NCBI GenBank assembly: GCA_036320915.1
Contig: JAXBDG010000006.1
Location: forward strand, 2,170,001-2,234,000
Length of the DNA: 64,000 bases
Source: Linnemannia elongata
Taxonomy: Eukaryota > Mortierellomycota > Mortierellomycetes > Mortierellales > Mortierellaceae
Direction of reading: 5' to 3'
Below, piece by piece: positions 28,311 through 62,963 of this stretch. Under the pieces are notes generated by a model. It had not been told where the DNA came from and searched no databases. It saw only the letters and a list, made by a program, of their open reading frames with translations. The translations under genes were made by a program, and so were the position numbers. The stretch's first letter is position 1, and each line of letters begins with the position of its first letter.

Positions 28311-28449
28311 TCATCTTTTGCTGCCCTTCGAGGTGGCTCTCCTTTTGCTCGATGCGGACGCGTTCACCCTCCTTCAACGAAGTAGAGGCCATTCCTTTTT
28401 CTTTATTTTAAAGCAAAGCGCTTCTCATTTTTGACAAGCCGCAAAGTTC

Positions 28450-31400
28450 TTACATGGCCCGACCAGATCCACGGCTCGACTTTTGCTGACGAGCCTGCTC
28501 AGCATGGAACCAATAATCATCATCTGAAGTTGCCTCACGACCAGCAGCGACATTGCCTAAGTTCTCGTCAAACTCCCGGATCTTACCGCTAGCCTTGTTC
28601 AACCCTGCACGGAGTTCAGATTCCAATCGGTTCGCAGACTTTTCGGCCTCGTGAGTCTTGGCACTCCACCACCGGCGACCGTCATCTTTGGCTTGTTTCA
28701 CTCCGTCCTGGATCTCGGACGTGGCCTTGTGCGTGGCCTGTTCGGCTCCAAAGATGGTTTCCTTCAGGGAATCGACGCCGCTTTGGAGGCTTTCTTTGGT
28801 GGATCGGAGGTCGTCGCGGATGTGGTCCATCAGGTTGGGGCCGTCGTAGCCATTTGCGGATCCTGAGTGCTCGTGGTGATGGTGAGTGTGGACTCGTTGA
28901 CCCTCAGCGGTGGTAGCAGCATCAATGACATTGTCGTAGGCCTTGCTGGCGGTTTCGGACATGTTCCTGCCAACGGTTTCGGCTTTGGCATGGACGTCGC
29001 GTTCGGCTTTGGCGGCAACGCGTTCGACATTTGCTCCGAGATCGGAGATCTTGGTGGTGATGTCGGGGGAGTAGGAAGAGGAGGAAGAGGAGGTGGAGGA
29101 TGAAGAGCCAGATGACCACCAGCTACGACGCTCGGGCTTGGCGGCGTTCACGGCTTCGACGATGGTCTCTCTGGACTTAGTGGTGGCCTCTGCAGCCCTA
29201 GCCTCGGCGCCAAGAAAGGCATCCTTCAAATTGTGAAGACCATCGGAGATGTCACTTTTGGTCTGCTTGATGTCCTCAACGATGTGTTCCATGAGATGTC
29301 CGGTGGAGTCGAAACCATCGTGGCTGTGCTTGGTCGAGGCAGTACTGGTAGCCGTGGTGTTTGACGAGCGAGACCAAGGCCAGCTCCAGCTGCTATCAGA
29401 GGAAGATGAAGAGGTGCTGTCACGCATCTCGACCTTCAAACCATCCAACTGAGAACGGAGGCGAGCCTCACGTTCAGAGTAGGCGCTGTGCTCACGGGAG
29501 ATCGAGCTGGAAGACTCGCGGGCAGACAACTCGGCGGCGCGCTTTCTCTCGGCAAGGTTGGACTCGGCACGGTTCTTAGCAGCAAGGGCCTCAGCCTCAG
29601 CTCTTTCAGCTGAGAGCTTCTGTTCCATCTCCTTAGCAGCACGGCTGGCAGAGATATTCTTCTCTGACAAGAGAGCATCGGCCTTGGCGCGAGCATCACG
29701 AGCCGCAGCCTCAGCCATCTCCAAAGTGCGCTTCTGGTCAGCGTTAATTGAAGTACGAAGAGAGGCCAACTTCTTCTCGGCGGCGAGGGCATCGGCATGG
29801 GCACGGGCCTCACGAGCAGCAGCCTCGGCTCTGTCGGTAGCAAGGCGAGACTCCATATCCTTTAAGGACCTCTCAGCAGTACGCTTCTGCTCCATCAACA
29901 ATGACTCGGCCTTCAACTTGGCCTCACGAGCAGCAGCCTCGGCCTTCTCGATAGCCTTGACGCGCTCCATCTCCTTGGCAGCCAACTCAGCATGACGTTT
30001 CTTCTCTTGGAGCATAGCCTCGGCGTGGGCCTTGGCCTCACGAGCAGCAGCTTCAGCCTTCTCAAAGGCAAGACGGTCAGCCATCTCCTTTGCAGCACGC
30101 TCGGAAGCTCTCTTCTTCTCCAATGCAGCAGCATCCTCACGCTCGCGGGTCAAGCGGATCTCCAAATCACGAGCAGCCTTTGCAGCGCGCTCAGCAGCCA
30201 TCTTCTTCTGGACCTCCAACTCCTTGGCAGCTTTCTCAGCAGCAAGTTTCTTCTGCATCGCCTCGGCTTCGGCACGGACCTTGGCCTCATAAGCAGCCTT
30301 CTGAGCACGCTCATGAGCCAATTTCTCCTCCATTTCCTTAGCAGCACGCTCGACCTTGAGTCTCTGCTCGCGAGCAAAAGTCTCAGCCTGGGCACGGAGT
30401 TCAGCGTTGGCCTGTTCCTCCTTGAGCTTCTCCATACGGATACGCTCTTCAATCTCACGGGCGTTGCGCTCGATCTTGAGCTTCTCCTCACGGATACGGG
30501 TCTCAAGTGCAGCCTTAGCCTCCTGGGCAGCTTTCTCGGCAGCAGCGGTCTCAAGGGTAGCACGGTGGTGGATCTCCTTGGCGATCTGATCAGCCTTCTC
30601 CTTCTGATCACGGGCCCAGGCTTCAGCTCTGAGTTTGATCTGAGCAGCAGCAGCATCCGCCTCAGCCTTCTCGCGCAGGACACGTTCCTGAACCTCGCGG
30701 GCGGACTGCTCAGCCAAAGTGCGTTGCTCAAGCTCCCAAGCCTGCGCGCGGGCCTTGGCATCGGCAACAGCACGATCGGCAGCAGCCTTTTCGGTAGCTA
30801 GACGCATCTCGAGCTCCTTGGCGCTACGCTCCATTGAGATCTGGCGTTCGCGGATTAAAGCATCGCTGGTAGACTTGGCCTGACGAGCGGCAGCCTCAGC
30901 TCTGGCCCTAGCATCGGCAGCCTTCTTTTCGAGATCAGACTGCTCCTGGGCGAGACGGTTGGCAAGATCGAGAGCAGCGCGCTCAGCAGCCTGCTTGGAC
31001 TCCCAGCCGATGGACTCGGTGCTGGACCTGATAGAGACGCTGGCGTCCAAATCACCAGGGGAGCTACGGAAGCGACGGTCCCACCAGGAAGAGCGACCCA
31101 AGGAGGTAGAGTTACGGCTACCTGGCCAGTTGTAGTAGCTGGCATCACGGATATCAGCCGAAGAGATCTCCTCACCGTTGGTCCAGTACTCGGTCTCATG
31201 GGGGAGGCGATCACTGATAAAGATCTTGCGATGGCTGTTGGCATAGGAAGTCTCATCTACACGGGCAGTTCCCATTTCCTCCTTGGTTGAGGACCAGACA
31301 TCGACGTCCTTGTTGTCAAGACCACCGTTGCTGTTGAGGCCAGCCCGTCGGAGCCAATACCCGCCATCCTCGCGGATCTTGGAGGTGCCTTGCTCCTCAC

Positions 31401-32754
31401 CGGTACTCCAGAGGTCATAAGACTCGGGGCCGGAGGCAGCACCAGCAGCCCCAATGCCAGCAGTTCCGGAGCGGGTTGAGAACCAGCTCTTGGAAGTATG
31501 GGTGGTCGACTCTGGGTGACGATCCTGATCGTGATGGAACCAAGTCTTTTCAGTCTCTGACTTGAGGGAGGACGAACCAGAATCAGATGGAATAGATGCA
31601 GAGGCATTTCCGAGAGGGCGTTGAACAAGGCGAGACTTGTCCTCAACCCATCCCTTGGCGCTATCGATAGCGCCAGTGGCCTTGGCCTTTACATCGTTGA
31701 CCTGGGTCTTGATGGAATCTTCGGCGATGGACGAGTTCTTGTTCCACCATTGCTTGACCTCCTGGGTCTTGTTGTCAATCTTGGTGTCGAGCTTGTCGGC
31801 CTTGACCTCGGCGGTGTGCCAGGCCTCGCGAGCCTTGGAAGTCAGATCAGCGCGGGGGAGGGCTGAAGTTGAGGAGTGGGACGAGGAGGATGAGACATGG
31901 GAGGAAGCCCATTTGTTGTATGAGGGCTGGTCAACACCGAGGAGGTTGCGGGTGGTGTGGGGGAGGAAATAGTACCCGGCGGCAGAGGCGAAGGCCACTG
32001 GAGACAAGGCCTTCAACAGTGCTCCTCCTTTATCATTAATTCGTAGATCAATTGATCAAAGAAAAAAAAATTAAAAAGTGTTGGAAAGTGAAACCAGAGT
32101 ACCGAAACATGACGCGAGGAAAAGAAAGAAAATCATTATTACGCGATGACACAGGTAGAGAATGTATACATACCTTGGCGGGCGGCAAGGGATCCTGTCA
32201 GACCAGCAATGGCGACATAGGCAATCCCAGGGAAGAGATCCTCCTCGGGAGCAAGCACCGAGCGCGTATTGGTGTGGTTGGGACTCCGGCTGTTGGCCTC
32301 GCGACGGAACTTTGACTTGACCTCCTCAGGTTTGATCTCGGACTTGTCCACAAGGTGGGGAAGCAGGCTCGCACGGTGGGCGTGATCGAAGCCGCTCTGT
32401 TCCTCCTATCCCACCAGCCAAGCAAAAATAACACAATAACAACGGGAAGCAGGGAGCAGAAAACAAACAGTGAGTAAAAATGAAGTTATCGTAAAATTGA
32501 GCAACCAAAGCACAAAGAACTTACAGTCTCGTCGGCATAGACGGGGTTGAACGAGGCGCGAGCACTGCTGGCGACAAGCGCGGCAGCAGCAGCGATTGTC
32601 ATAGGCTAAGTAGGGCGAGAGATATGCACAGAGTTGAGTCTGATTTCCATGTGTTTGTCATGTTTTCACACACTTGCCTCTGTTTTCCCACACAGAAAGA
32701 ACAAAATAAGAAGAGTCCGATCTACAAACTTACGCGCATGACGGAGTGAACCAT
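28450..32754 (-). CDS. MIC26/MIC27-type MICOS subunit with giant coiled-coil extension (1303 aa)
   Basis: Four exons (32754-32734, 32605-32525, 32405-32174, 32027-28450). The N-terminus (MVHSVMRPMTIAAAAALVAS) resembles a mitochondrial presequence. Residues about 90-135 have the apolipoprotein-O/MIC26-MIC27 signature: a first membrane segment FPGIAYVAIAGLTGSLAARQ, then ALSPVAFASAAGYYFLPHTT. Family members organise cristae junctions in the inner mitochondrial membrane and are normally about 200-300 residues. Here about 1150 residues are added: an LEA-like helical region (TGAIDSAKGWVEDKS), three W-x-x-x-EE repeats (DLWSTGEEQGTSK, DVWSSTKEEMGTA, EYWTNGEEISSAD), a coiled coil of Ala/Glu/Lys-rich units (about 455-978), and two C-terminal amphipathic repeats (LMEHIVEDIKQTK and LMDHIRDDLRSTK, each ending in RRSWW or RRWW). 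One continuous frame covers it, so it is not an annotation join. Confidence 0.8.
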
Positions 32755-45237: not shown

Positions 45238-48200
45238 TTACCAAGCGAGCTCGCTCTCGTCACCACAGTTGCTCTTGGAAGGAGCAGCAGCGGCAGCAGT
45301 TTCACTACCACAGCTAGAAGCCTTCTCGGGAGCAGTAGCAACACGGAAGAGCTGCTTGCCATAAGTCTTGTACATCTCCGTCACACCACCACCAGCCAAG
45401 AGACGCTCCTCCATCAACGACAATCCGAAGGGATACTCCTTTCCGTTGCAGTGGACCTTGCGATCCTTGACATCAATCGCAACCTCGGCACCCTCCTGAG
45501 CATCCTTGTAGAAAGCCTCGTCATCAAGGGTGATTCCGAGGAGGGACATGTTGGGCTGGTTACGGGCGTAGATGAAGGCGTAAGACTTTGCGATCACGGC
45601 CTTGACACCGGCACCGAGAAGGGCACGGGGAGCCTCCTCGCGAGAGGAACCAGAACCGAAACCACTGCCGCCGACAACGATGTCGAAGCCTTGCTTAACG
45701 AGGTCGCGGAATTCGGGCTTGACGAATTGGAAGGCGTGGGTGCCGAGATCAACGTCGGAGGTTCCGGGCATGAACTGGGCGGGGATGATGGCGTCAGTGT
45801 CGATGTTGTCCTCGAAGCGCTGGACGCGACCCTTGATGGTAGCCGAGAAGGAGGGTGGAGGGGCAGGGAGGGAGGAGCCGTCGGCGGAAGCCTCATCGTA
45901 AAGGATGGGGACGGGCTCGGAGTAGACGACGGGCTTGCCCTTCTCGATCCACTGCTCGAGCATCTCTTCGTAGCGGACACGGTCGATCGAGTCAAGGAGG
46001 TCGCGGGGGTTGCGGATCTTCATGTCGAAGGATGAGGCGGCGACGGTAGCGGCAGAGGCGAGGTTACCGATGGCACCCTTACCCATACGGTTACGGAAGT
46101 TACGGTTCTGGGACGAGAGCCAGACCTCACCTTCGCCGGCTTGGTCAGCAGCGACGGCGATACAGTAAGAGCATCCGGGGGCACCGATGATGAAACCGGC
46201 TTGCTCGTAGATCTTGAGGAGTCCGAGACGACGGAGCTTGGCGACGATGGGGACCGAGCCAGGAGTGACCTTACGCTTGCCTCCGAGGGCGGGGACAAGA
46301 CCCTTCTTCAAACCAGCCTCAAGGACAAGGGCAGCCAAGATGAGATCCTCCTCGGCCGTGGTACAGGCTCCAATGAAGCATCCGTCGAGTTTGGTTCCTG
46401 AGCAGGCATCGACATCGACACAGTTATCAGGATCGGGGTAGAGGGCAACGAGGGACTCGACCTTGGCGAGGTCGATGACGTGGGTCTCGGCGTACTCGGC
46501 ATCCTCATCGGCCTTGAAGTAAAGGGCAGAGTTCTTGTGCTGGGGGTTCTTGCGCTTGGCAATGTAGGCGGCGGTGGTCTCATCGGCCTCACAGACTCCG
46601 GCAATTCCTCCAAACTCGGTGGCCATGTTGGCGAGGGCGAAACGGGCATCGCACGACAAGTGCTTCAAACCGGGACCAGTGTACTCGACAGAACGCTCAA
46701 AGGCGACAGTGTTACGCTTGAGCTGCTGGAGGACATAGAGAATAGCATCCTTTCCACCGATACCGAAGGGAGGCTGGTTAATGAAGCGGATCTCGACCGT
46801 CTCGGGGACCTTGAACCAGGTCTCACCAGTGACCAAGGGCATGACAACATCAGCAGCACCAAGACCGACAGCAAAGGCACCGACGGCACCAGCAGAGCAA
46901 GAGTGCGAGTCGGCACCGATGATCATCTGACCAGGCTGGGCACGCTCACGGTAGAACTCTGTGTGAAGAATCGAGTAGTTGGCGCCGTAGAAGTCGATCA
47001 ACTTTGCCTCCTTTGCGAAGTCAGTCGAGGCCTTGATGAGCTCGGTGGGCTTGGGGAGGTGGTTGATGCTGGGATCGACGGTGTGGTCAACGGCGAGCCA
47101 GAAGCGATCGTTACGGTAGACGGAGGGGCGACCCATCTGATCGTAGGTCTTGTCCATACCCTTCCAGGTCAACTCGGAAGCCAAAGTCCAATCGACAGAG
47201 ACGCAGACCATGTCGCCGGGCTTGACGTTACCGGGGGCAGTGAGACCAATGGCGTTGTGGGCGATAATCTTCTCAGAGATGGTCATTCCACGGCGGCCGG
47301 CGGGGCGACCAATAGCCAAGGGACGGGTGATGGGGGCACCCTCGGCAGCGTTAAGACCAAAGAGCTCCTTCTCGAGGACCTCAAGAATCTTGTCACCCAT
47401 CTCCTTGGTGGTCTTCTCACCGCCCAAGTCACGGGTGCGGAATTCGTAACCAGCGGTATCAGGGCCATCCAAGACCTTGCGGACAGCATCCTCAACAGCG
47501 ACAGCCTCAGCCTCCATATCAAGCGAGTAGCGGAGCAACATGGCGGCCGAGAGGATGGTACCGACGGGGTTGGCAATACCCTTGCCTGCAATATCAGGGG
47601 CAGATCCGTGGATAGGCTCATAAACTCCCAAGCAGGGCTTGCCCTTCTCAGGGAGACCGTTCAAAGAAGCCGAGGGGAGGAGACCGAGGGAACCAGGGAT
47701 GACGGAAGCCTCATCCGAGAGGATATCGCCAAACATGTTCTCGGTCAAGATGACACCGTTGAGTCCACGAGGGTTCTTGACGAGGAACATGGCGGCGGAA
47801 TCAACGAGGTGGTGATCGACCTTGAGCTGGGGGTATTCCTTCTCAATCACATCCGTGACAGTCTTGCGCCAGAGACGGGACGAGGCCAAGACGTTGGCCT
47901 TGTCGATCGAATGAATAGGCCAGTGGGGCTCATGCTGGAGAGCAAGGGCAGCAGCAAGACGAGTAACACGCTCGACCTCAGCCTTGGAGTAAGGAAGGGT
48001 ATCATAAGCAAAACCATCCTCCTCGGTAGCCTCCTTGCGGTCACCGAAATAGATACCACCGACGAGCTCACGGATCATCATAAAGTCAACGCCCTTGACG
48101 ATGGATTCCTTGAGGGGAGAGTGGGAGATAAGGGAATCGGAGGCAAAGGTGCAGGGGCGGAGGTTGGCGTAGAGGTCGAGGGACTTTCTGAGGGCGAGGA

Positions 48201-48750
48201 GTCCTTGCTCGGGTCTGGGGTTTCCTGTAGCCCACTTGGGACCTCCTACTGCTCCGAGGAGGATGGCGTCGGCAGCCTTGCAAGACGCAAGCGCCTCGTC
48301 TGTGAGCGCCGTGCCTGTTTGCCATAATGGTCCAGTTTACAGTTCCAGAAGGTGAACGTTTGCAGGGAATTAAGATTCGAATTCGGATCAAAGGGATAGC
48401 GAGAAGTAGTCACGATTAGTTATCTTGTCCACTTTTGGCGTCGTATCTCTCAAACAAAATGGGTGATGTCCTCATGATCCAAGTTCATAGCGTTAATCCA
48501 TCCAACAAAGACAAGAACAAGAACAGAACAAGAACAAGAACAGGAAACAAGAAAGAACAAAGAAGAAAAACGTACCGTGGGCATCGATAGAGGCACCACC
48601 GATCAACTCGGTCTTGAAGGCAATAGAGATCTTGTGTGCGCGGATCTTGGCGACGAGCTCGAGGACACGCTGGGCCTCGGCAATGACCTCGGGACCGACT
48701 CCGTCTCCGGGGAGGAGGACGACTGTGGACTTCTTAGCAGCTACCGTCAT
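45238..48750 (-). CDS. Fusion enzyme: 3-isopropylmalate dehydrogenase + isopropylmalate isomerase (1083 aa)
   Basis: Two exons (48750-48576 and 48314-45238). Residues 1 to about 385 are a complete IPMDH (LEU2): [33 protein letters not shown], and [18 protein letters not shown]. Residues about 402-860 are an aconitase-type large subunit (LeuC-like) starting [15 protein letters not shown], with substrate motifs ([18 protein letters not shown]), Fe-S ligands FIGAC and GCSYC. Residues about 880-1050 are the small-subunit domain ([28 protein letters not shown]). The tail is Cys/Ser/Ala-rich. The two enzymes catalyse consecutive steps of leucine synthesis, in reverse order along the chain. The isomerase half looks like the prokaryotic/homoaconitase-like LeuC type rather than canonical fungal LEU1. 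No mitochondrial presequence is visible. One frame runs through the joint, so it is not an assembly artefact at that point. Confidence 0.9.
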
Positions 48751-49803
48751 GATATTGTTATTGTTGTTATGTGTAAAAAGAGGAGGTGTACAAACGAAAG
48801 GAAGCGGGCGTGTATGTGACAAAGAATAAGTTTACAAATGAGAAGAACGAGGAGGAAATGTAAGAGAGGAGGGGCAACAGCTGTGTGGGAAGAAAGATGT
48901 AAATCAAAAGGGGGTATTGCTTGTTGCAAAGAGAAGGGAGTTGGGGAAAAGAGGAAAAGGGGGGAAGATGTGTATGAGGATTAAGAAAAAGAAAAAAGAA
49001 AAGCAAAAAAGGGAAGAAAATGCCGCGACCTTTTAAAGATGAGAGAGGAGCATGCGCATGAATAGTGAAAGTAAAAAAAAAAGTCCGAAGTGTGCTATAC
49101 TGGGATTGTGATGACAATTAGAATACAATGAGAAGTATAAGGAATCAATAGAAAGGCATCCATCTGTCGGGCTGTCCCAATCAAATTGCACGAGTGACTT
49201 GTATGACTCTGATCTGTCCGAACTAGAGGTTACTCACTTCTCTTTGCGGCTACTGCTCACTCATACACACACACACACACTCACGGCACTCGTACTCGGT
49301 CAAAACGGCTGCATGAAGAGGCAATTGCAATTGCGTGTCGTCTTGCTTGCTTTGGTCAGGCACACAGCCAAAGGAAAAACGAGGAAAGAAAGAGGCAAAA
49401 ACAAACAAACAACTTCGCACATCGCATACACACAGTGGAAATGAGGATAAACCAGGGTAAAATGGATAAACTACCCCTGCCCCTGATGGAAACACAACAC
49501 TCCATATCGCCATTGCCAGACAAGAGCGATACCCACACTCGGCTATCTTGTTGACGCCCAATTGGTCGCGTGTTGTTGTAAGTTGAATCGTGTATCATAA
49601 TGAAGTGAGAGTTGTGGGTCATCGGCTCAAGTTCAATTGCCATCTTTTTTTATAAACCCGAGCGTGCAAACACGAAAAGAGAGATCAAGATCTTGAATGA
49701 GTATATGGTCTACATTGGGGTGCGTGTTTATTATGTTTTTTAGATGTTTGTGTTTTGCTGCAAAAAAGTTCGATGGAAACTACAAAGATAAAAGGCAGTG
49801 TGC
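48751..49803. other. Promoter region of the LEU2-LEU1 gene
   Basis: About 1.05 kb between same-strand genes. No gene seen. It holds a minus-strand TTTAAAAGG box (49029-49037, about 280 bp upstream of the ATG) and TGACTT/TGACTC sequences (49195-49200 and 49203-49208) that resemble Gcn4/CPC1 half-sites. Confidence 0.4.
49029..49037 (-). promoter_or_regulatory. TATA-like TTTAAAAGG upstream of LEU2-LEU1
   Basis: On the minus strand TTTAAAAGG is centred about 280 bp upstream of the ATG at 48750, within a GC-poor promoter. Confidence 0.35.
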
Positions 49804-51159
49804 TTATCCAGGGGGCAAGAGGGAGGCATCGACGCCAGATCCCTCCTCCTGAACCTCATCCTCCTCCAACTCATGGCGATCATAGATAGGCGAACGAGGC
49901 ATAGCCATCATTCCACTCCTGGCAGCCTCAAGGATACCAAAAGGCTTAACCAACTTGACAAAGGCATCGATACGATCAGGCTTGGCCGACAACTCGATCA
50001 CGGCACAGTCGCCACTGACATCGACCACTTTACCCTGGAACAACTTGGCCAGCTCTGTCAACGACTTTAAGTGGCCGTGAGTCTGACGGAGTGCGTTTGA
50101 GGGCGTCATTTCCTCGTCGGCCTCATCCTGCAATAACTGCCAGCCATTAGGGGAACGCGAGTTCATCTGGGCGCGGACGTGTTCTGGTCCAAGGATCGAG
50201 ACCTTGACCAACAGCAACTCGCGCTCAATGACCTTGAATCCAGTGTAATCCAACACCGCCCACACTGGAACCTATTATTGTTTTTGTTATCAGGAATAGG
50301 GGTAAAGCAGTAGGAAGAATTTGCATTGTCAGACGCATTGATCTCCTTTTCTTTCTTTTTCTTTCTCACGGAGGAAGTAGCAAAGTTGTTAAGCCAACAT
50401 TGCACAATAGCTTGCAAGCAGACAAAAAAAAATAAGACTTACAAGGTCCTCCAATTGCCTCCGGGCCTGCTCAATAGTATTCGACTCGCCTCTCAACACA
50501 ATTGTCATCCTCGAAAGATCAGCCACTTCCGTCTTGGCAACCACCAACGAATCAATGTTAAAACCACGTCCAGCCAAGATCCCTGAAACGCGACTCAAGA
50601 CTCCGGGCTCGTTCTGGACAAGACAGTTAAAGATGTGGCGTTGCTTCGTACGCGTCATGCCGATGGGAGGAGTGTTGTAGAGAATGTTGGAGACAGCTTC
50701 TTCGGCCGAGGGAGGGGCTGGGTGGAGGTAGTCGGATGTCAAGGCCGGGTGGCGCTTGTGAGGATGCGAACGTTTGTAGGAGATTGCCGAGGTTGAGGAG
50801 GATGATTGACGGAGGGTCATCATGGGGGTGGTGAGTGTGCGGGCGGGCTTGATTGCTGCCAATGCCGAGTTGGCCTATGGGATCCATGTGGGAGAATGTG
50901 AACAAAGGTTGTTTCCTTCCATGGTTAGCATCCTTGTTTTTGTTATTCTCGTTGAAAGTGAGACGAAGCACGAGGAGAATAATAAAGTCCAATATGTCCA
51001 GAGGTCGTTGGTTGTTGTTCAAGCCAGCAGTAAAACAATAAAGTTGGTCCATATGTGTTTTCTTTCGTCCTGAATGCAATGGTAATGAGGAAGAAGGTAG
51101 TTGTTGGTTACCAATGGCGCTGCTCTTGTTGCGGAGCTGAGGATCCTTGAAGTCCACAT
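49804..51159 (-). CDS. ILV6: Acetolactate synthase regulatory subunit (315 aa)
   Basis: Three exons (51159-51112, 50874-50443, 50271-49804). The N-terminus (MWTSRILSSATRAAPL and the Thr/Arg-rich continuation) is a mitochondrial presequence. An ACT domain occupies residues about 85-165: RHIFNCLVQNEPGVLSRVSG, ILAGRGFNIDSLVV, VLRGESNTIEQARRQL, then VPVWAVLDYT. The C-terminal half (ERELLLVKVSILG, FQGKVVDVSGDCAVIEL, then FVKLVKPFGILEAARSG) is the second ALS small-subunit domain. The protein binds the catalytic subunit encoded at 60430-62963 and is expected to confer valine feedback inhibition. The start ATG was chosen because it gives a presequence and splices in phase to the ACT exon. The third exon joins in phase at Leu-Val. 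Confidence 0.9.
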
Positions 51160-51936
51160 GAGGAGAAGGGTGGTGATGAGTGGAGAGAGGTTTGAATGAA
51201 GAAGAAGAGAGAAAAGAAAGGAGAAACTCTCAAGAAAAGGAAAAAAAAAAAAAAAAAGAAAAGTTGCCAGTCCTCGGTTCTCGGTCCTTGGTGTGTGTGT
51301 GATCCCCTCTTTGATGCGTTTGATGGTCAGTCAAGTGTTAAGAACAGAGATCGATGGAGTGGAGAAATAGTTAAGCTAAACTCTAAATCGATAACGCTAA
51401 TGACCGTTAAGCCAAAAAAATGAGTAACAGTAGTAAAAAGCGTTAACTCGATGACAGGGTTGACGAAACAACAAGTGACCAATCACATCCATCGCATGTG
51501 ATGTTCTTATCGATGGGTTGTTGAAGGCGCAAAAAAAAAGAAAAGAAAGCTGGGACAACGCCCCTTCTTCCCTTCTTCCAGGAACAAGGGGTGCAACCTT
51601 CTTTTGCTGCTCGGACTCTAATCAACCAAATACCCCTGCCCTTCTGCCAGTCATATTTCTCTCCTTACCTATCTCGAGCGAGGAACCTTACTCATATCTC
51701 TCAGCTTAACCAACGCAACACTCATTGGTGCTGTGTTGCTTCCTCCTAATGCTAAACGATGCGCTTCCGATCTCCTCACTCTTGGCTGTTTCAAACAGCC
51801 GTCTCTTCAATGCCAATGGCAGTGGCAATGTCAACAGACAATGGGAATGATGATACTAACATGAAATTTCTATTGCTTACTGAAAATGATAAAAAAACTA
51901 ACATACAAAAACTACTCCAAATGCCAATCCAACTCT
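51160..51936. other. Intergenic region between ILV6 and the HIBCH-like gene
   Basis: About 780 bp between two same-strand genes. No gene seen. No clear TGACTC site was found in the ILV6 upstream part. Confidence 0.4.
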
Positions 51937-54211
51937 TTAGTTGATCCACTTGAGCTCACCCTCGGTGCCCTTGGTGACCTTGCGCGACAAGACCTCCATG
52001 ACCTTCTCCCTGACACCAATCTTTCCTCCACTCTTCTTGACACAGACATCAGCAACCTCCTCAGCAGTCAACTGCAGAGGTCCGCTGCCCTCAGACTGGC
52101 CAAGGACAATCTTGCGGATCTCGTTCTCCGAGGGAAGAGCATATCGAGAGTAGGGGTACTCTTTCCAGGTAGTACTGTTGGACAACGACAAAGCCTTAGG
52201 GGCCTGGTTTCTAAAGTACTGTCCCAACATCTGCTCACGGTCAACCTCCTCGATAGTGGCGGGCTTCCACTTGGGGTCGAGGGTCTTCTCGATTAAAAGA
52301 GCGCGAACGCCCTCGGCAAAATCAGATCCGTGCAAGAACTGACGAGCCAACTGATGCTCCATCCTGAAGCAGTCAGCAATGCCCAAATTGGCGCCCTCGC
52401 GGATCTGCTGGAGGGTGACCTTCAAAGAGGTAGGCGAAACGGTGCGAAGGGTCTTCAAGGTCTTCTCCGCGAAGGGAGTCTTTTCCTGCTCCAATGCGGC
52501 AACAATCTCCTCAACAGTGTTGAAACGGAAGCAGCGATCAATGGCGTCGCGGTTGTCCGAAAGGGCGTACTTGTGGTCGTGAAGGGGTTCGCTGACAAAG
52601 TCCTCAATAGCCATGTTAATAACATCGTGGTTGTCGGTCTCCAGCTCACTCAGGCGATCCTCCAATGCAGCCAAACGCTCCGAAGGAACGTAGTGAGTAG
52701 CAATTCCTGCAAGACTGTACGAGTAGTTAAATGGACAAGGGAGAGTACGATTAGTTAATTAGGACGAGTTAAGGTCAATAAAAAACAACAAGTGCGGCTG
52801 CGTGCATGAAAGTGACACCATCTCGCACAAGAGGATATAGTTTCTGTTTCCTTACACAGTATCAATGCCCTTGAGCTGGGTGCCAACAAGACCGAGGTAG
52901 GTACCAGTCTCACCATCCAAGCGAGGCAAGAAGAAGGATCCTCCGACATCAGGGAACAATCCAATGTTGGTCTCGGGCATGGCAAAGACAGTCTTCTCAG
53001 TGGCAATTCTGAAAGGAGCGTGGACAGAAAGGCCGACTCCGCCACCCACTAGTTAAAGGAAAAAGGAGGGAAGGTGCACTTTGGTTAAGCAAATTGGATC
53101 GAGAAGCATTGACCCATTCTCCTCGCTTAAGAGCACGTGGTAGTTAACGAAAACAACACAGTAGGACAATTTCTCCTTACTGGTAATGCCATCGAGGATG
53201 GCGACAAAAGGGGTCTTCAAGGTGGCGATCATATGGTTCAGCTTGTACTCCTCGGCAAAGAAGTCCAAGGCCTCGTTGTGCTTTCCAGAGCCAGCCAACT
53301 CGACGACCTGACGGACATCTCCTCCAGCGCAGAAAGCTCTTCCTCCTGCTCCCTTAATCACAATAACCTTGCACAAGTCTGATGCATCCCAGGCCTACAT
53401 ACAAAAAAAAGGCCGTATTAGAACAACAGAGTTCAATAAACAAGCAGTCCATCCCTCTCAGCGTAATAATTTGCATGCCCTTTGCATGCGGGTCATAAAC
53501 ACACATAATCCTGATGCATACCTGGAGCTGGGGAGTCATATTTCTGACCATGCTCAAGTTGAGGGCGTTCAATGCCTTGGGGCGGTTGAGAACAAAGGTG
53601 CGGGAAGAGAGGTGCTTACGGTGCAACACATCAGCCTATTGTTGTTTAGTGGAGATCGTTGCAAAGTCGAGTTTAGTTTCCTGCGCTTTCTTCCGTCATT
53701 ATCCTCGATTTCCTTGTACGTGCACGAAAACGAAGGTCCTTCACGCAATGCTTCAAAGTGACGATCCATACCTCAACAGCGTCGGCCTTGGCAGCAGTGG
53801 TAGACATCTATTTGTGTTTTTGAACAGGTAAGGATAAACCGGGTCGAAAAAAAAAGCGTGAGTTGTCCGTGCTCGGTCACTGCTGAGTACGCCTCAGTGG
53901 TCTGTAGAACCCTCGTGAGTAACGCCGATATCCCTCTTGTGTCGCAAGAGCAACAATATGCCCTCTAAGTAGTCGTTCTAATTCCCAGTTCCTGGCTCTT
54001 GCTGTTCGTGCCTGGCCCTTCCACCTATGTTTCAGTAACAGTCCTGTTAAGGCCTTGTTCTCCCGCAACTGCCAAAAAAAGGGGGGGAGGGGATCCGTAC
54101 GTTGACACGGGCACCGAGCCAGTTGTTGACCACGCGGATGCGGTTCATGGCGACAGTCGAGGGCGACAACACCTTGGAGGCGGCGGTCATGCGGATTGTC
54201 TGGCGCAACAT
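51937..54211 (-). CDS. HIBCH: 3-hydroxyisobutyryl-CoA hydrolase, mitochondrial (481 aa)
   Basis: Six exons (54211-54101, 53807-53772, 53635-53522, 53394-53181, 53048-52856, 52714-51937). After a mitochondrial presequence ([16 protein letters not shown]) comes an enoyl-CoA hydratase/isomerase fold: [70 protein letters not shown], then the typical [15 protein letters not shown] segment and a C-terminal helical half. These motifs set it apart from general enoyl-CoA hydratases. It hydrolyses 3-hydroxyisobutyryl-CoA in valine degradation. The splice between exons 5 and 6 uses the acceptor ending at 52715, giving GT+T (Val). The alternative acceptor eight bases downstream loses the frame. Confidence 0.88.
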
Positions 54212-56847
54212 GGTTGTTTCCTGTTGGGGTTGTTGTGGTTGTTCGAATGAATGAAGAGAGTGTGGGAAGCCCGAAACACAGACAAAACATAGTCAGGGCC
54301 GAACCGTGGGACACAAAATCGATTATATGACGTAGTGGAAATCGCTGCTCTCGCTCCCTTTACTTTTTTTTTTTTTTCAGGTCGAGCTCTGGGTTTCAAC
54401 TTCTAGGTTAGGGGATAGGCATGCTGGATCAGGCGTACCATACACAGTGCCGTATAGCGAACAAGCTCATGCGCAGTAGCAATAGAGAAGGCATACCCTT
54501 GAAGAGGAATAAAGGTTAGAGAGAGTGACCAATTGGTTGTTTTGTTCGAAGTGCGGAATGGGTTAGACTTTTCTTAAGTGTCTTGTTCGTTCCTCAAAGT
54601 TCCCACGCCCCCCAACAAAAGAAAAAAAAATGATCAGGTCCCGTACACACGAAGCGAAAAGCTACCTAGCATTGTGGTTGATCCCCCTCGCATGATTTGA
54701 TCATAACCATTTGTTCCATACTCCATTTCTCCCCCTTGGATGCTACCTTGTGCCCATCATCCCACATCACCATTGTTCACGCGCTCCTTTTTTTTTAGGA
54801 CCCTTCTCGTTCTTTTTTTTTCTTTTCTCATTTTCAATTCCTTTTGTTCTTCCTTCTTTTCCACCTTCCTCAACAAATTCACGACTGAAAAATAAATAAA
54901 GACAGGCATATCGTCATCATCGAACCTGCTCAATTCTCGTCCAATGGTACAGCCCATGGCGCTATCCTTATAAAGTGAATGCACGTTGGGTGTTTCGTCC
55001 TGTAATACTTGTGTTCAGGAATGAAGGAGCGCCAAGTTCCCACGCCAACTCCTTCTTTTACTTCTTACTAATTGAACACCATTGCTCCCTTTTCGTTTTT
55101 GCGCTCAATTCGAAAGACACGACAATTATGCTGCAGAGGACCAACGAAATCCCTAGAGGAGAACACTTTCTATCTGTACATGTTCTGCTTACTCTTAATA
55201 TTTCACTCAGTTTTTTTTTATGGGCGCGTTCACCAAGGCACGATACGACTATAAACTACATGAACCCGAGAAATATACTGGACAAGAACTGGATGCTGTT
55301 GTACACAAGGTGGTCCTTTGCAATTCCATCTTGCACGCCACAGGAGATCAGGGTTTCAACAAAAGACTTTGCCGTATATATTCGACTGGCAGCCTACACT
55401 CCTCGCCGTTGAGCTCGATGGGGGTGACTAGAGAGCCTATGCGCTCAGGGTACGGATCACTTCGACATCTACCGGCCCAACGGATGTTTGATATCTTCTT
55501 TCAGCTCTGTCAATAACAATGCAGATCTCGTCTTTAAATCGGGGGGAGGGGGGTTATATATACGCAAGATCTAACCTTCATCGACAACATCAACAAATGA
55601 AAAATCTCAAGACTCCGGGTGCCCTTCTTGATTATCATTTGACAGGATCAACAGCGACCGCGGATACAAGAAAAGGGGAGCAACACTATGATGATAGCAC
55701 ATTGTATCAGCAAACAATAACGCCCAGGTAGCATACATGCATTGACGAGATGCGAGATCGTTGGCAGCAAATCCTTACAATATAATAACAAACGGGGGCA
55801 AAAACGCACAATGGATATGTTTTTATCTTTTTTGTTTTTCCATCTTCTTACTTCACTCTTATCTTCCTCGCTCGTACAATGACAAAAAAAAAAAAGAGCA
55901 GCAGTATCAACATCACTTGTCTTTGAATGTTTTCTCCCGCCTTATTATAACCTAGAGCAATAAAAAGTACCGACCTCGTTTGTTCGTACCCTAGCCATGC
56001 GTGATGCGAGGGCCTATAGCGTGGAGGGGAAAAAAGGGGTATTTGGGTGTCTGTTGTGTGAGAGCTTGTGAACACTAAGATTGGCTAGGTAGTAGTAGCT
56101 GGGTTTAATCATATCTCTTGATACAAAGTAAGAAAACGACAAAAAAAGGGTAGGAGGTCGATTTGATTTCTTGAGCCTAAATGGAAAAATGCACTGTAAA
56201 AAGGCAAATGAGGACTGGGATAGCTACATACCATAGAAAGGGTGTTGCCAGTGGATAGCGTATCTAGGCATGAGCCTATAATTGGGACGTTCGAGACGTT
56301 TCGAACGAAGGAAAAGGAGAGATGAAAGGGAGCGAATAGAGGACTGGAAACAAGGTCAAGGTAAAAAAAAAGAAGGATAAGCATGCAAGAAAAGACGCGA
56401 TGGTTTCAAACGCCAAATGTGATCTGAAAGAAAAACGAACAGAAAGGAAGGGAAGGAGTGAAGGATGGAAGAGGCGCGTGCGAAAACCCTCCTTGCTAAG
56501 TCCTCCAACTGGAACCGACCGTTATTCGATAGATTTGATCAGTCATTGTCTTTTCCCATAAAAGCCGTCACACCTACTTCTCACTGGCAGAGATAAAGAC
56601 TGTCAGGGATGAAGTCAGGTACGGATTTCAACAGGCAAAAAGGGATATGATAACAAATGAGAAAATGTATTCAAGCTAAGGTACAAGGTGAGTGTATATA
56701 TACGAAGGAGGAGAGACTAGAGGAGAGGAATAGAAAGCTGAAGGGTGCCCTGGCAGTGGTGTGTGTTGCCAGGGTTATCTATATGAAAAATGCCAGATTC
56801 CAGAGATTGCGAGGAATTGAAAATGTGAGATCCTGAGGTTGCAACAC
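54212..56847. other. Long intergenic region between HIBCH and ILV5
   Basis: About 2.6 kb with no supported gene. Plus-strand frames at 54975-55412 and 55220-55516 are cut by frame changes and have no motif I recognise, but could be remains of a lost gene. A 20-nt segment at 56220-56240 resembles the ILV5 exon 2 donor region. No promoter element was assigned. Confidence 0.4.
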
Positions 56848-58369
56848 TTAGTTGTTCTCGGGGCGCAACTTGCGGACGGTCTTTCCGACGCGCCACATCT
56901 CGTGGTCAGCGATCTCGGCCAACTCGACTTCGAGCTCGGCACGGTAGTTGGGGGTCGAGTTCTTGGTCAAAGAGCGGCGGGTCTCGCTGCCGTTGGCGAC
57001 GGACTCGTACAAGTTCTCAAAGATAGGCTTGGTGGCATCTGTTAAGAAAAATTAAGAGGAAAGAGAGAATCGATTGATTAGTTTTTGTGTGCGGATCATG
57101 GAAACGAAGGACCATCGACGCATCGACAATACATGAAGCGCAATCCAATGAAGCAAAGGACGATGAGGGGAATGGCTACATACCGTAGAAAGGATCGCAC
57201 CAATCGAGAGCTCCGCGCTGAGCAGTTGTGGAGCAGTTGGCGTACATCCAGTCCATGCCGTTGGCACCGATCAAAGGGTAGAGCGACTGAGTGGCCTCCT
57301 CGACAGTCTCGTTGAAAGCCTCGGAGGGGGAGTGACCCTTGGCACGGAGAACCTCGTACTGGGCACGGAAGAGACCCTGGATGGCGCCCATGAGGACACC
57401 ACGCTCACCGTAGAGGTCAGAGTAGACCTCGTTCTTGAAGGTGGTCTCGTAGAGGTAACCAGTTCCGACACCGACACCGAGGGCGACGGCACGGTCCTTG
57501 GCCTTGCCAGAGACATCCTGGTAGACAGCAACGGATCCGTTGATACCACGGCCCTCGAGGAAGAGGTTGCGGACGGTGGTGCCGGAACCCTTAGGGGCGA
57601 CGAGGATGACATCGATATCCTTGGGGGGAACGACGCCAGTGTCCTCGGAGAAGATGACGGAGAATCCGTGAGAGAAGTAGAGGGTCTTGCCCTTGGTGAG
57701 GTAGGGCTTGATCTCGTTCCAGAGCTTGGACTGGGCAGCGTCAGAGAGCAAGTTCATGATGACGGTACCACGCTCGCAGGCCTCGTTGATCTCAAAGAGG
57801 TTCTTTCCGGGGACCCATCCCTCGGAGACGGCCTTGTCCCAAGAGGCGCCCTTGCGGGATCCAATGATGACGTTGAGCTTGTTGTCGCGGAGGTTGAGGG
57901 CCTGGCCACGACCCATGGGGCCGTAACCGAGAACGGTGAGGGTGTCGTCCTTGAAGGTCTCCTGGAGCTTGGCAGGGGGGTAATCAGAGCGCTCGTAGAC
58001 AATCTCCTTGGTGCCGCCAAAGTCCATGGTCTTGACACCGCGGGTCTGGGTGAAAGCAACCTGTTGATTCGCAAGGGATGTGTGTAAAAGAGAGAGAGAT
58101 GGAGATGTGAGTAATGAGATCGATATCATTTTTGGTTTTAGTGCGACGAGGATGGTATGGCACTGCATTGATCTGGATGAGAGCGAGTTCAAAATTCATG
58201 AAATCGGAGTGGAATATCATCAATAAAAAAAAAGAAACGTTACCTTGCAGGCAGCAGCGCGAGGGACGTGGGTAATGGCGGCAGAGCGGGCCATGACGGA
58301 GAAGGAGCGGGCGGTGGGGGCAGCGACGCGAGTCAACTGGCGAAGGGCGGTGCGGGCAGCGAAGCTCAT
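56848..58369 (-). CDS. ILV5: Ketol-acid reductoisomerase, mitochondrial (397 aa)
   Basis: Three exons (58369-58244, 58060-57184, 57038-56848). Exon 1 encodes a clear mitochondrial presequence (MSFAARTALRQLTRVAAPTA). The NADPH-binding loop is LGYGPMGRGQALNLRD. Later motifs include IIGSRKGASW, FSHGFSV, LVAPKGSGTTVRNLFLEGRG and the metal-binding SDLYGERGVLMGA. The C-terminal domain has EEATQSLYPLIGANGMDWMY. The length and loop identify the short class I form typical of fungi. It converts acetolactate or acetohydroxybutyrate to dihydroxy acids, immediately after acetolactate synthase, and sits head to head with ILV2. The frame is continuous across all three exons. Confidence 0.93.
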
Positions 58370-58564
58370 TGTGAATATGTAGTGTATTTGTTGGTGGGTA
58401 AGGTTGAGTTGAGAGGGGAGAGGGGATTGAAAGTCGTTACTTTGAAAGAAGAAGGATGACCAGAAGGTGAGTAGGACTGGACCTGGGTATTGGAGTGAGG
58501 ATGTGTGAGTGTGTTGTGATGAAGAAGAAAAAAAGAAAAGAGAAGGAAGAGGTCGGGATGGAGG

Positions 58565-58574
58565 CTTTTATATA
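58565..58574 (-). promoter_or_regulatory. TATA box of ILV5 (TATATAAAAG)
   Basis: On the minus strand TATATAAAAG lies about 196-205 bp upstream of the ILV5 start codon, in a position shared with the TATA-like boxes of several genes in this window. Confidence 0.6.
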
Positions 58575-58923
58575 AGGTCGGATCAAAAAAAAAAAAAAGA
58601 AAAGAAGTGGATCGGCTTGAGCAGGGTGTGTGTGTGTGTATGTACGCCAAGGGGTCCAATTGAACGATAAAGGATTAGTTAGTCCTGGCTGCATCATCCA
58701 AACAAGCGACGGGGACTTGTCTCTTTTTTTTTTTGTTGCTCAGCAAACGATTAAAATGATGTCTGTGGGTCAACAGTCCCCGTCTTGGATCGAATCAGTC
58801 ATTTGGATATGGTTGACCCAAAGGCACAAACGAAATAAGGTTAACAACACTAACACACATGAAATGTAAAAAATATCCCGAAGACCTCCTTCCCTTGTTA
58901 ACTTAACTCACAATCACCGAGTT

Positions 58924-58965
58924 TGACTGGGTTGATTGACTGACTGAATCATTGACTGGACTGAC
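58924..58965. promoter_or_regulatory. Cluster of TGACT half-sites with a TGAATCA core
   Basis: Within 42 bp there are four TGACT units (58924-58928, 58937-58941, 58941-58945, 58953-58957), a TGAC at 58962-58965 and a palindromic TGAATCA (58945-58951). Gcn4/CPC1-family bZIP activators bind TGACTCA and variants upstream of amino-acid genes, so this could be a control element for ILV5 and ILV2. Inference from sequence only. Confidence 0.35.
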
Positions 58966-60153
58966 AGAATAGCCAGCTACTGCTGTTCGCGATAATGAAA
59001 ATCCCGAAAGACATCTCCACCTTTTACTGGTTCTCTCCCGCGCTCGCTCTCACTCACTTTGCGATAATAGGATCCAGAGAGGATCCCTCCCTTTTCTCTC
59101 CCTTTCACGCTCTCAATTGTCTTGCTTCTTCCTTCTCTCACCAAGATCAAGGAATCAGCTTAAACTGGCAGAGTGGTTAGATCTCTTGTTCTTATCCCTT
59201 CCACTCCCACGCGATAAGGTGATCACGATTGAGCCTTTTAATCGACATCCACAGTAGCTTCGTGACACGGACTATGGTAAAGGCCGCCATCTGTGATCGA
59301 CGAATGTGGACAATTGGAAAGAGTTGGTGGCGCTTTTTATTTCTTTTTCCTCACTCGGATGAAAGATCGCCGACCGACATGACGAGAAAACTTGGATCAA
59401 AGTAAAATATGAAGGAGAACGGGTGAATGATCGCGTGTCAAAAATAGGAGCAAGTGTGCAATTGAAAGGAGACGGGCTTTTTTTTGTTGACCTGTTGTTG
59501 TGAAGAGTGATCGCCCCTCTTTCCTTTTTCTCTTTTTTTTTTTTTTTTGTTTAGCCATGCTGTGTTGATTGTTTATTGTACCTTTCAGCTCTCTTTCCGG
59601 GATCCTTGAGACGCCAGGTGATCCATTCTTTCTTCTCTTTCTTTGGTTTCCCTTCCTCATACTTGGACATGTTCGAATGAGCTCCATTTGTTTGACAAAA
59701 GGGATAAGTTATTTTGATTGCCTTTATTAAGGTTGTGTGTGAGTTGCGAGTGCGAGAGTGCTTATGTGAGTGAGTCCAGCAGATCTTGCGATTGAATGTG
59801 ATTGGTCCGTTGGCATGACTAACTTTTGTAAGTCTGTATTTCTGTTATCTGTCCCTCCTTATGCGCATTAGTCAATTTACTCTCTCTGTCACTCTCTCAA
59901 TTCCAAGTCGTTGGTTGGAGAGGGGATACTCCACACACACACTTGCATGTGCAACTTGTTGACTGTTGTCGTCAAATGCGTCAAAGTCACTTTTCCTCTC
60001 TACACCAGTTGATCGATCAGTGAGGAGGAAGGCCAAAGTAACAGCCCCCCTCCCTCCCCCTACTTACCACTTGTGCCCCTCCCCCCCTCCTCCCCTCTTT
60101 CTCCGTTGATCAAATCAACACTGCAATCAACCAACAACCATCAGAAATCAAAA

Positions 60154-60162
60154 CATATATAT
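60154..60162 (+). promoter_or_regulatory. TATA-like CATATATAT of ILV2
   Basis: CATATATAT lies about 270 bp upstream of the ILV2 start codon at the edge of a long pyrimidine-rich leader. Confidence 0.35.
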
Positions 60163-60429
60163 CTCCTCTCCCACTCCCCTCTTTTTTAATCTTTTTTTCT
60201 TCACTCTTCTTGTTTTCACTTACTGTACTTACACCTCCCCTCTCTTCTTTTTTCTTTGACCGCAGTCCTCTCTGCTTCACTTCTCGGATTTTCTTATTTT
60301 TTGGTTTTTCTTCTTCTTATCCGAACAAATCATCCTCTCTCTCTCTCTCTCCACTCTTCTCTTTCTCTCTCCCCTCTTTCAACGATACCCCTCCTCCCCC
60401 TTCACTCACTCACACATATACATAACAAG

Positions 60430-62963
60430 ATGCAAGCAGCACGTTTGGCCAGATCTACATACTCTGCCGTCAACAGACAGGCATTCAACCGTACCCTCTA
60501 CCTCTCCTCCGCAACAAAGATCGCCTCCACCCAGATCCGTTTCCGCTCCTCAGCCGCCGCCGCAGAAGCCTCCTCTTCTAGGTACTTTTTTTTTTTTCTT
60601 GTTATTTCCTCTTGACTTCTGCTCTGTGCAACGGCCGACAAAACACTGCATATGCTAACTAACCATCTCTCTTCCATATCTTTATCAAACAGCCCAGCAG
60701 TTGCAGAATCAGCAGCACCAAAACTTCACCCTCTGGAACGCCAACATCAACAACCAAAGAAAGCAAAGCCAGCTCATGACCACTCGTTCGTGGGTATGTC
60801 TGGAGGTCAGATCTTCCACGAGATGATGTTGCGCCATAACGTGAAGCATGTCTTTGGATATCCAGGAGGAGCCATTTTGCCCGTCTTTGATGCCATCTAC
60901 AACTCGAAGCAGTTCGAGTTCATCCTCCCCAGAGCTGAACAGGGAGCTGGACATGCCGCTGAGGGATATGCCCGTGTCACGTAAGTGATCTCTTTTCCAT
61001 CTATTTCCTTGTATGCTCCTCGATCTACTGCACGCTTTTGTTCTTTATGGTTTCGCTTATCTGGGTTGCACTTGTGGGCTTGTGCTTTTTTTTTTTCTAT
61101 CATAAGTCAGAACGGGGACTGAAGGAGAAAAGAAGGTTTTTTTTGTTGTTGTTGATGCTAACCAGTCGTCTCTCTTCTCCTTGTTCTCATTGGCTGGAAT
61201 GTACTTCTTGACCCACATGACTCTTAATTGTCACATATATCCTATATGTCTCCAGTGGCAAGCCCGGAGTCGTCCTCGTCACCTCCGGTAAGCATCTCAT
61301 TCATTCTTGATTTTCAAACCTAATCGCAACAGAACTGAAAGTATCCAAGAACACGATTACTCACCTTCCCCTTCCTCACATGTCAATCTGATCTATCCAA
61401 ACAATAACAGGCCCCGGAGCAACAAACGTCATCACCGCAATGCAGGATGCCCTCTCAGATGGAACCCCTATGGTCGTCTTCTCAGGACAGGTCGTCGTCA
61501 GTGCCATCGGCTCTGATGCCTTCCAGGAGGCCGATGTCGTCGGAATCTCCCGTGCCTGCACAAAGTGGAACGTCATGGTCAAGGACATTGCCGATCTCCC
61601 CCGTCGCATTAACGAGGCCTTCGAGATTGCCACCTCTGGACGTCCCGGACCCGTCTTGGTCGATTTGCCCAAGGATGTCACTGCCGCCATCCTCAACAAG
61701 CCCATCCCCGCTGCACCCGGCATCCCCGTCAGACCCCCCACCAGCCAGTCGACCTTCTTCACCGGCTTGGCTAAGGATGCCTCCCAGGTCACTTCCCCCC
61801 AGATCCTCCGCGCCGCCCAGTTGATCAACGCTGCCAAGCGCCCCCTCATCTATGCCGGTCAGGGTATCTTGGCCCACCCCGATGGCCCTGCTCGTCTCAA
61901 GGAGCTCTCTCACAACGGCAACATCCCCGTTACTACCACCCTCCAGGGTTTGGGTGCCTTCGACGAGACGGACCACCGCTCGCTCCACATGGTTGGTATG
62001 CACGGATCTGCCTATGCCAACTTGGCTATGCAAAAGGCCGATGTCATCATTGCCCTCGGAGCCCGTTTCGACGATCGTGTCACCGCCAACGTGGCCCGTT
62101 TCGCCCCCGAGGCCAAGAAGGCCGCCCTCGAGAAGCGCGGAGGCATCATCCACTTTGAGATCTCACCCAAGAACATCAACAAGGTCGTTCAGGCCACTGA
62201 GGCCATCGAGGGTGATGTCACCGAGAACTTGACCAAGCTCTTGCCTTTGATCGAGGGATCTGAGCGCAAGGAGTGGTTCACCAAGCTCGGTAACTGGAAG
62301 AGCCGTTTCCCCTTCTACCATGTCCAGGACCCCAAGGGTATCCTTGCCCCCCAGACCGTCATCCAGGAGCTCGACAAGCAGACCGCTCACATGAAGGAGA
62401 AGGTCATCATCACCACTGGTGTTGGTCAGCATCAGATGTGGGCCGCCCAGTACTTCCGCTGGCGCTACCCCCGCACCCTCGTCACCTCGGGTGGTTTGGG
62501 CACCATGGGCTTCGGTCTCCCTGCCGCCATTGGCGCCAAGGTCGGCAAGCCCGACCACATTGTCGTCGACATTGACGGCGATGCCAGTTTCTGCATGACT
62601 GGTATGGAGTTGGCCACGGCCGCACAGTACAACATTGGCGTCAAGGTCCTGATCCTCAACAACGACTTCCAGGGTATGGTCAAGCAATGGCAGGATCTCT
62701 TCTACGAGGAGCGTTACTCGGCCACTCAGATGTACAACCCTGACTTTGTCAAGCTCGCTGAGGCCATGAACATCAAGGGTCTCCGTGCCACCTCGATGGA
62801 GGATCTCCCCGGCGCCATGGCTGAGTTCTTGGCCCACGATGGTCCCGTCGTCTTGGAGGCCAAGGTCTGCAAGCGCCAACACGTCTACCCCATGGCCGCT
62901 GCCAGCAATGCTCTTGACGAGTTCATTGTCCACCCCGACCAGGCCGGTCAAAGCCGCGATTAA
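60430..62963 (+). CDS. ILV2: Acetolactate synthase catalytic subunit, mitochondrial (674 aa)
   Basis: Four exons (60430-60581, 60693-60980, 61256-61287, 61411-62963). Exon 1 encodes an Arg/Ser/Ala-rich presequence (MQAARLARSTYSAVN). The TPP-dependent core has YPGGAILPVFDAI, RAEQGAGHAAEGYAR (catalytic Glu), SGPGATN, a central FAD/TPP-family domain, and GDASFCMTGMELATA with NNDFQGMVKQWQDLFYEERY at the C-terminal active site. It condenses pyruvate (or pyruvate and 2-oxobutyrate), the first shared step to Val, Leu and Ile. Exon 3 is only 32 nt. At the position of yeast Pro192 (GQVPTSAIG) the residue is Val186 (61494-61496; GQVVVSAIG), while Trp of QWQ is kept. The partner regulatory subunit (ILV6) is at 49804-51159. 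Confidence 0.95.

Follow-up and report, generated by a model that had tools for sequence, protein, structure and literature searches.

A BCAA gene block in Linnemannia elongata

A 64,000-nucleotide stretch of the Linnemannia elongata genome (hereafter the window; G000:C29:2170001-2234000, from a genome of 51.1 Mb in 32 contigs) carries between positions 45238 and 62963 a block of five genes, four of which belong to branched-chain amino acid (BCAA) biosynthesis. The block begins at the stop codon of a LEU2-LEU1 fusion gene and ends at that of ILV2. Splice sites of the five gene models were picked by eye; all spliced models give uninterrupted proteins identified by Pfam, and they agree with the gene names proposed in a preliminary description of this DNA and with the strands given there (four genes on the minus strand and ILV2 divergent).

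45238..48750, minus strand: LEU2-LEU1 fusion; exons 48576-48750 and 45238-48314; 1083 aa; PF00180, PF00330, and PF00694; C-terminus LAW
49804..51159, minus strand: ILV6, acetohydroxyacid synthase (AHAS) regulatory subunit; exons 51112-51159, 50443-50874, and 49804-50271; 315 aa; PF10369/PF22629
51937..54211, minus strand: HIBCH, Ehd3-type 3-hydroxyisobutyryl-CoA hydrolase; 6 exons; 481 aa; PF16113
56848..58369, minus strand: ILV5, ketol-acid reductoisomerase; exons 58244-58369, 57184-58060, and 56848-57038; 397 aa; PF07991/PF01450
58370..60429, no strand: divergent ILV5/ILV2 intergenic region, both promoters inside; 2060 bp
60430..62963, plus strand: ILV2, AHAS catalytic subunit; exons 60430-60581, 60693-60980, 61256-61287, and 61411-62963; 674 aa; PF02776/PF00205/PF02775

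From the fusion to ILV2 the intergenic gaps measure, in order, 1053, 777, 2636, and 2060 bp. The fusion, ILV6, ILV5, and ILV2 are contiguous, HIBCH being the only other gene recognized between them. Among the matches listed, the closest named proteins are from Linnemannia elongata (Mortierellomycota): the fusion matches BGZ89_001573 in all but 2 of its 1083 residues, and ILV6 is identical to BGZ88_004082 over all 315. ILV6 is also identical to P0121, whose best PDB matches are the AHAS regulatory subunits 6wo1 and 6u9d. The probability that ILV5, ILV6, and the fusion would all lie within 20 kb of ILV2 by chance is ∼1.9e-9 under a simple uniform model (51.1 Mb; two copies of ILV5, two of ILV6, one of the fusion), uncorrected for the choice of pathway. 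The clustering is real and nonrandom. We rejected an operon read as one transcript, since ILV2 is on the opposite strand and the gaps are long (777 to 2636 bp).

Linkage in other fungi

Linkage in other species was read indirectly, from locus tags and equal-sized contigs in the protein match lists; the contig recorded is the longest of a 90% cluster, so that a match or mismatch may be wrong for the strain named. The linkage table comprises 25 of 120 listed LEU rows, 95 of 120 ILV6 rows, and 45 of 120 ILV2 rows, including 9/9, 70/71, and 15/15, respectively, of the named Mortierellomycota rows. Left out are P0195 (a Mortierella alpina ILV6 with no partner row), the three relatives P0004, P0127, and P0245, and most rows from outside the phylum that have no partner; the outside counts also cover additional Rhizophagus rows and Entrophospora sp. 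SA101 (P0327), all with contigs of unequal size.

LEU and ILV6 are linked in four of the five Mortierellomycota species with both genes listed. Fusion and ILV6 tags are consecutive in Entomortierella lignicola (BGZ46_005727/005726), Dissophora globulifera (BGZ99_007983/007982), and Actinomortierella ambigua (DFQ27_002788/002789), and the two rows are on an equal-sized contig in Mortierella sp. GBAus27b. For the fifth species, L. elongata, different strains were compared; there the adjacency is seen directly in the window. ILV6 and ILV2 rows are on an equal-sized contig in 7 of 13 Mortierellomycota species, including one weak case (E. parvispora, with a 2.4 Mb contig and an ILV6 that groups with a second-copy sequence), and A. 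ambigua is represented by two strains, each showing one half of the cluster. Outside the phylum, linkage was found in 0/21 species for ILV6-ILV2, 0/13 for LEU-ILV2, and 1/5 for LEU-ILV6 (Geosiphon, 45 tags apart). Linkage recurs within Mortierellomycota beyond chance. The preliminary description had called the arrangement rare, which holds for ILV6-ILV2 in that the two rows are on unequal-sized contigs in all 21 other fungal species compared; it is not unique, because linkage recurs in the phylum and partial versions from M. alpina are in print (PMC8880518, cited here and below for part of its text).

A separate observation concerns P0323 of Bifiguratus adelaidae (Endogonales), a 905-aa partial protein in which ILV2 (residues 8-582) and LEU2 (581-904) form one chain. 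Either annotation has run two neighboring genes together or the fusion is genuine; the model also hints at ILV2-LEU2 adjacency outside Mortierellomycota.

Relation to the Mortierella alpina clusters and block duplication

Fungal genes for amino acid biosynthesis are usually not clustered, and known clusters of fungal primary metabolism include those for GAL, DAL, and nitrate. Like them, the Linnemannia block brings neighboring genes of one pathway together under separate promoters; it differs in being anabolic rather than an optional catabolic trait, and we do not claim co-regulation for it. A literature search on acetolactate synthase and leucine gene clusters in Mortierella turned up a single paper, which describes two partly duplicated clusters in M. 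alpina, ilvB-ilvF1-ilvE1 and ilvF2-ilvE2-leuB1 (Sonnabend, Seiler and Gressler 2022, PMC8880518). The same enzymes are grouped (ILV2-ILV6-ILV5 and ILV6-ILV5-LEU2), in the same phylum and with partial duplication, and the Linnemannia block extends this already described cluster. In Linnemannia, however, ILV2, ILV5, and ILV6 share a single block with the leucine enzymes, LEU2 is fused to LEU1, and HIBCH lies between ILV6 and ILV5, as judged against the M. alpina loci in the part of the paper cited, which lists LeuA2 and LeuB1 on different contigs (PMC8880518).

Linnemannia shares two features of the M. alpina arrangement (PMC8880518), namely, ILV2, ILV6, and ILV5 together and a second partial copy elsewhere. 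The second copy is an adjacent ILV5b-ILV6b pair on contig C28, in the same order and orientation as in the window (identity to the window genes, 77% for ILV5 and 59 to 78% for ILV6). It consists of ILV5-ILV6 alone, whereas LEU2 stands beside ILV6-ILV5 in M. alpina (PMC8880518); no such LEU2 was found in the 60 kb around the C28 pair. The ILV6 tree has two copies in many of the species shown, with 25 of 60 inner forks weak. A tree in which 23 second-copy sequences were constrained to be monophyletic was at least equal to the unconstrained tree (p-AU, 0.54; the second-copy group was named after the tree had been seen, and the long row P0189 was excluded), and a single old ILV6 duplication is possible on these sequences. 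Together with the split arrangement in M. alpina, this test suggests block duplication followed by differing losses. The literature listed on whole-genome duplication in Mortierella and on fungal primary-metabolism clusters added nothing further, apart from PMC12616698, taken up below under a rival reading.

The rest of the pathway is dispersed among the genome's contigs: ILV3 is on C23, aminotransferase-type matches are on C5, C13, C27, and C9, an isopropylmalate synthase (LEU4) match is on C1, and a threonine deaminase-type (ILV1) match is on C12. A single copy of ILV2 was found in the genome, and one copy of the fusion, whose remaining genome matches are 29 to 42% identical; by eye, two of these resemble homoisocitrate and isocitrate dehydrogenases, and the others comprise a third dehydrogenase match and aconitase-type matches.

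The LEU2-LEU1 fusion

The fusion protein consists of a 3-isopropylmalate dehydrogenase (LeuB, residues ∼9-371), a linker of ∼19 residues (∼385-403), and an isopropylmalate isomerase (LeuC-LeuD), and a single open frame of 1032 codons spans almost the entire length of the two enzymes. On the near-identical P0001, NCBIfam TIGR00169 (leuB) scores above its cutoff, and the isomerase models among the 25 listed are all prokaryotic and all below their own cutoffs; PDB matches of P0001 are 3-isopropylmalate dehydrogenase and the isopropylmalate/citramalate isomerase large subunit. Its AlphaFold model (mean pLDDT, 85.6; pTM, 0.84; low-confidence tail at 1057-1083) places ∼19 residues between the last dehydrogenase helix and the first isomerase helix. 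With two leucine steps on a single polypeptide, the intermediate may be handed on directly.

PF00180 and PF00330 occur together in 120/120 relatives listed (the best 120 of 599), a count favored by the use of a fusion query and a length filter. Among these matches the fusion extends over Mortierellomycota, Glomeromycotina, Endogonales, Kickxellomycotina, Entomophthoromycotina, chytrids, Blastocladiomycota, and Neolecta; no Mucorales name was noticed among the same 120. Three EukProt entries are also present, one labeled Phypoly (presumably Physarum) and two that group with P0106 (98% SH-aLRT). The fusion is not peculiar to this cluster: chytrids, Blastocladiomycota, and Glomeromycotina have it, as do EukProt entries. 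Being widespread among early-diverging fungi, it is rejected as an exceptional feature. We found no description of a LEU2-LEU1 fusion in the literature searched, a search that mostly did not reach subscription journals, and we do not claim that it is absent from print.

The window protein falls within an 8-row Mortierellomycota group supported at 100% (SH-aLRT). The fusion tree broadly tracks fungal groups, which fits vertical descent, and several of its deep forks are weak. A separate clade contains 8 sampled ascomycete fusions (Fusarium, Clonostachys, Verticillium, Cadophora, and others) that are ∼50% identical to the window protein; this divergent clade (within P0077-P0120) also includes Pseudogymnoascus. 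Compared with other LEU2-LEU1 fusions of early-diverging fungi and other eukaryotes, the window protein is alike in domains, length, and terminal tryptophan and is distinctive only by its place in an ILV cluster.

Of the 89 listed fusion rows of at least 990 aa, 86 end in tryptophan, as does the window protein. A C-terminal [LIM]-[DES]-[WF] is an iron-sulfur (CIA, TCR) targeting signal, found for example in yeast Leu1 (PMC10623007, cited for part of its text). The LAW end of the window fusion resembles this motif but fails its strict form (PMC10623007); 44 of the 89 rows end in [LIM]AW, and 26 fit the strict motif. Several of the divergent ascomycete fusions do match the strict motif, with IDW, MDW, or IEW at the C-terminus.

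Two further fusions deserve mention. Dissophora globulifera has two fusion genes (P0005 and P0007), one of them with an ILV6 row of neighboring tag among the matches listed. P0106, a 1475-aa metagenomic protein, joins LeuA (2-381), LeuB (411-759), and LeuC-LeuD (774 to ∼1396) in one chain, its LeuA part being short (∼369 of 516 positions of the bacterial models matched); its domain order is that of the bacterial leuABCD operon. Measured against the same operon order, the window fusion retains B-C-D, but it is one polypeptide encoded by a eukaryotic gene with an intron, and the LeuA match is unlinked (C1).

HIBCH and mitoribosomal mS47

The gene between ILV6 and ILV5 had been described as a valine degradation hydrolase. 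Pfam supports the HIBCH type (an ECH_2 domain, PF16113, plus a fungal C-terminal extension), but the protein is closest to a chain of the fungal mitoribosome. Its best solved match is 6yw5_88, aligned over residues 10-474, an alignment that takes in the C-terminal part beyond that matched by human HIBCH 3bpt (46-395). The 6yw5_88 chain is named 3-hydroxyisobutyryl-CoA hydrolase, and we take it to be the Neurospora mitoribosomal protein mS47; chains named mS47 also match the window protein. The likeness to fungal mS47/Ehd3 runs over residues 10-474, C-terminal part included, and ribosome membership is a prediction from it. The role of the gene may lie in the mitochondrial ribosome, in the breakdown of valine, or in both. 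Other HIBCH family matches are on C27, C2, and C10, all weaker than the window gene.

Promoter motifs

We scanned 777 to 1031 bp upstream of each of the five genes (for HIBCH, the nearest 1 kb of 2.6 kb). None of these promoters contains a strict Leu3 site (CCGN4CGG) or Gcn4 site (TGASTCA), and words of at least 7 bases common to all five are A/T-rich runs. A relaxed Gcn4-like TGASTMA, for which no chance expectation was computed, occurs upstream of the fusion (once), ILV6 (twice), and ILV2 (twice) and was not found in the regions scanned upstream of HIBCH or ILV5. The ILV5/ILV2 region has no CCGN4CGG or TGASTCA, and the two TGASTMA upstream of ILV2 lie on its ILV2 side. One palindromic TGASTCA lies upstream of ILV6b on C28.

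Neighboring genes

To the left of the block is a dioxygenase-like gene (∼43.2 to 44.8 kb), and to the right are cap-binding, WD40, ribonucleotide reductase, sugar-phosphate mutase, and proteasome genes. These neighbors were named by eye from coding segments, and none resembles the BCAA pathway. A tRNA-Leu (CAA) gene at window positions 28227-28312 is ∼17 kb from the leucine fusion, and we suspect no link. A minus-strand frame of ∼1188 codons (28453-32016), rich in Ala, Glu, Lys, and Arg and coiled-coil-like by eye, sits in a stretch with GC above its surroundings.

Origin and persistence of the block

We interpret the block as a primary-metabolism cluster of Mortierellomycota, vertically inherited and partly duplicated, and give this reading a probability of roughly 80%, a figure that does not cover the cause of its persistence. 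Each gene has introns, an upstream region, and a stop of its own. ILV2 and ILV6, the synthase and its feedback subunit, followed by ILV5, supply valine and isoleucine precursors, most likely in the mitochondrion, and the fusion catalyzes two consecutive leucine steps as a single polypeptide, most likely in the cytosol. At least ILV5-ILV6 would have been duplicated as a block, after which lineages would have lost different copies. Our preferred cause of persistence is low rearrangement combined with weak selection for a balanced, co-inherited ILV2:ILV6:ILV5 dosage, which the divergent ILV5/ILV2 promoter region would help.

Several results weigh against parts of this picture. ILV6 and ILV2 rows are on contigs of unequal size in 6 of 13 Mortierellomycota species; these misses include short contigs, other strains, and second ILV6 copies, and some may be real separations. 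Fusion and ILV2 rows share a contig in 0/2 Mortierellomycota species, both of them cross-strain comparisons. The 60 kb surrounding the C28 pair contain no HIBCH or LEU match; wide collinearity with the window was looked for there, but ILV5 and ILV6 are the sole matches, so duplication of a larger block is unsupported. For M. alpina IlvF1 no predicted signal peptide is listed (PMC8880518), at odds with mitochondrial targeting of every ILV6 copy. The lack of strict Leu3 and Gcn4 sites in the five promoters belongs here as well.

The strongest competing account of persistence is pure inertia: the genes came to be neighbors once in the Mortierellomycota ancestor and were kept together by slow rearrangement, the linkage having no function and bringing about no co-regulation. 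We regard this as a serious contender, though somewhat short of even odds. It agrees with the missing strict sites, with the location of ILV3, LEU4, ILV1, and aminotransferase (BAT) matches elsewhere in the genome, and with the possibility that HIBCH is a mitoribosomal protein. Expression in M. alpina also fits: BCAA supply shifts BCAA genes at most 4-fold, isoleucine induces all leucine biosynthesis genes, clustered or not, and the three BCAAs together repress leuA1 and leuA2, which are outside the clusters, and not the early-step genes (PMC8880518). Inertia accounts less readily for the adjacency of a catalytic subunit, its regulatory subunit, and the next enzyme, given the chance estimate above, and for ILV5-ILV6 being adjacent in the second copy too.

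A bolder form of the preferred reading, which we hold only tentatively, is that of a phylum-wide anabolic cluster under selection, in which ILV2, ILV5, ILV6, the fusion, and perhaps a mitoribosomal protein would be linked for dosage balance without a Leu3-type regulator, complementary parts being kept in each lineage after block duplication. Such retention would leave ILV2 and the leucine gene together in Linnemannia but on separate blocks in M. alpina.

The preliminary description had suggested selection for co-regulation or co-inheritance; in a co-regulated cluster, chromatin or a shared regulator would govern the whole block. The block architecture, the divergent ILV5/ILV2 region, and the relaxed TGASTMA upstream of the fusion, ILV6, and ILV2 speak for it, as does the induction of the clustered M. 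alpina ilvE1 and ilvF1 by valine, along with ilvA (PMC8880518). However, ilvA is on another contig than ilvE1 and ilvF1, regulation is weak overall, with isoleucine induction regardless of clustering (PMC8880518), strict motifs are missing from all five promoters as scanned, and the relaxed one is missing there at HIBCH and ILV5; on balance we think co-regulation unlikely.

Two last alternatives are very improbable: a secondary metabolite cluster with ILV2 as a self-resistance copy, suggested by the dioxygenase-like neighbor and by fungal resistance-guided cluster mining that yielded an acetolactate synthase inhibitor (PMC12616698, cited for part of its text), is rejected because the single ILV2 found should be the housekeeping gene, and no synthase or P450 was recognized by eye in the coding segments examined; and a gene model or assembly artifact at the fusion, in favor of which nothing was found, conflicts with its uninterrupted frame, its near identity to a separately deposited L. 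elongata protein, and the domain pairing in all relatives listed.

The block brings together the two subunits of the first enzyme, the enzyme that follows, and two steps of leucine synthesis, and related lineages retain different traces of a duplication. It offers a comparative test of why pathway genes stay linked in basal fungi, where the Leu3 regulator is reported to be absent (PMC8880518). The wide spread of the fusion bears on the ancestral fungal leucine pathway, and the separate yeast genes may be the derived state. If a selected, phylum-wide cluster is indeed present, Mortierellomycota would be a natural setting in which to test whether linkage itself matters for primary metabolism in fungi.

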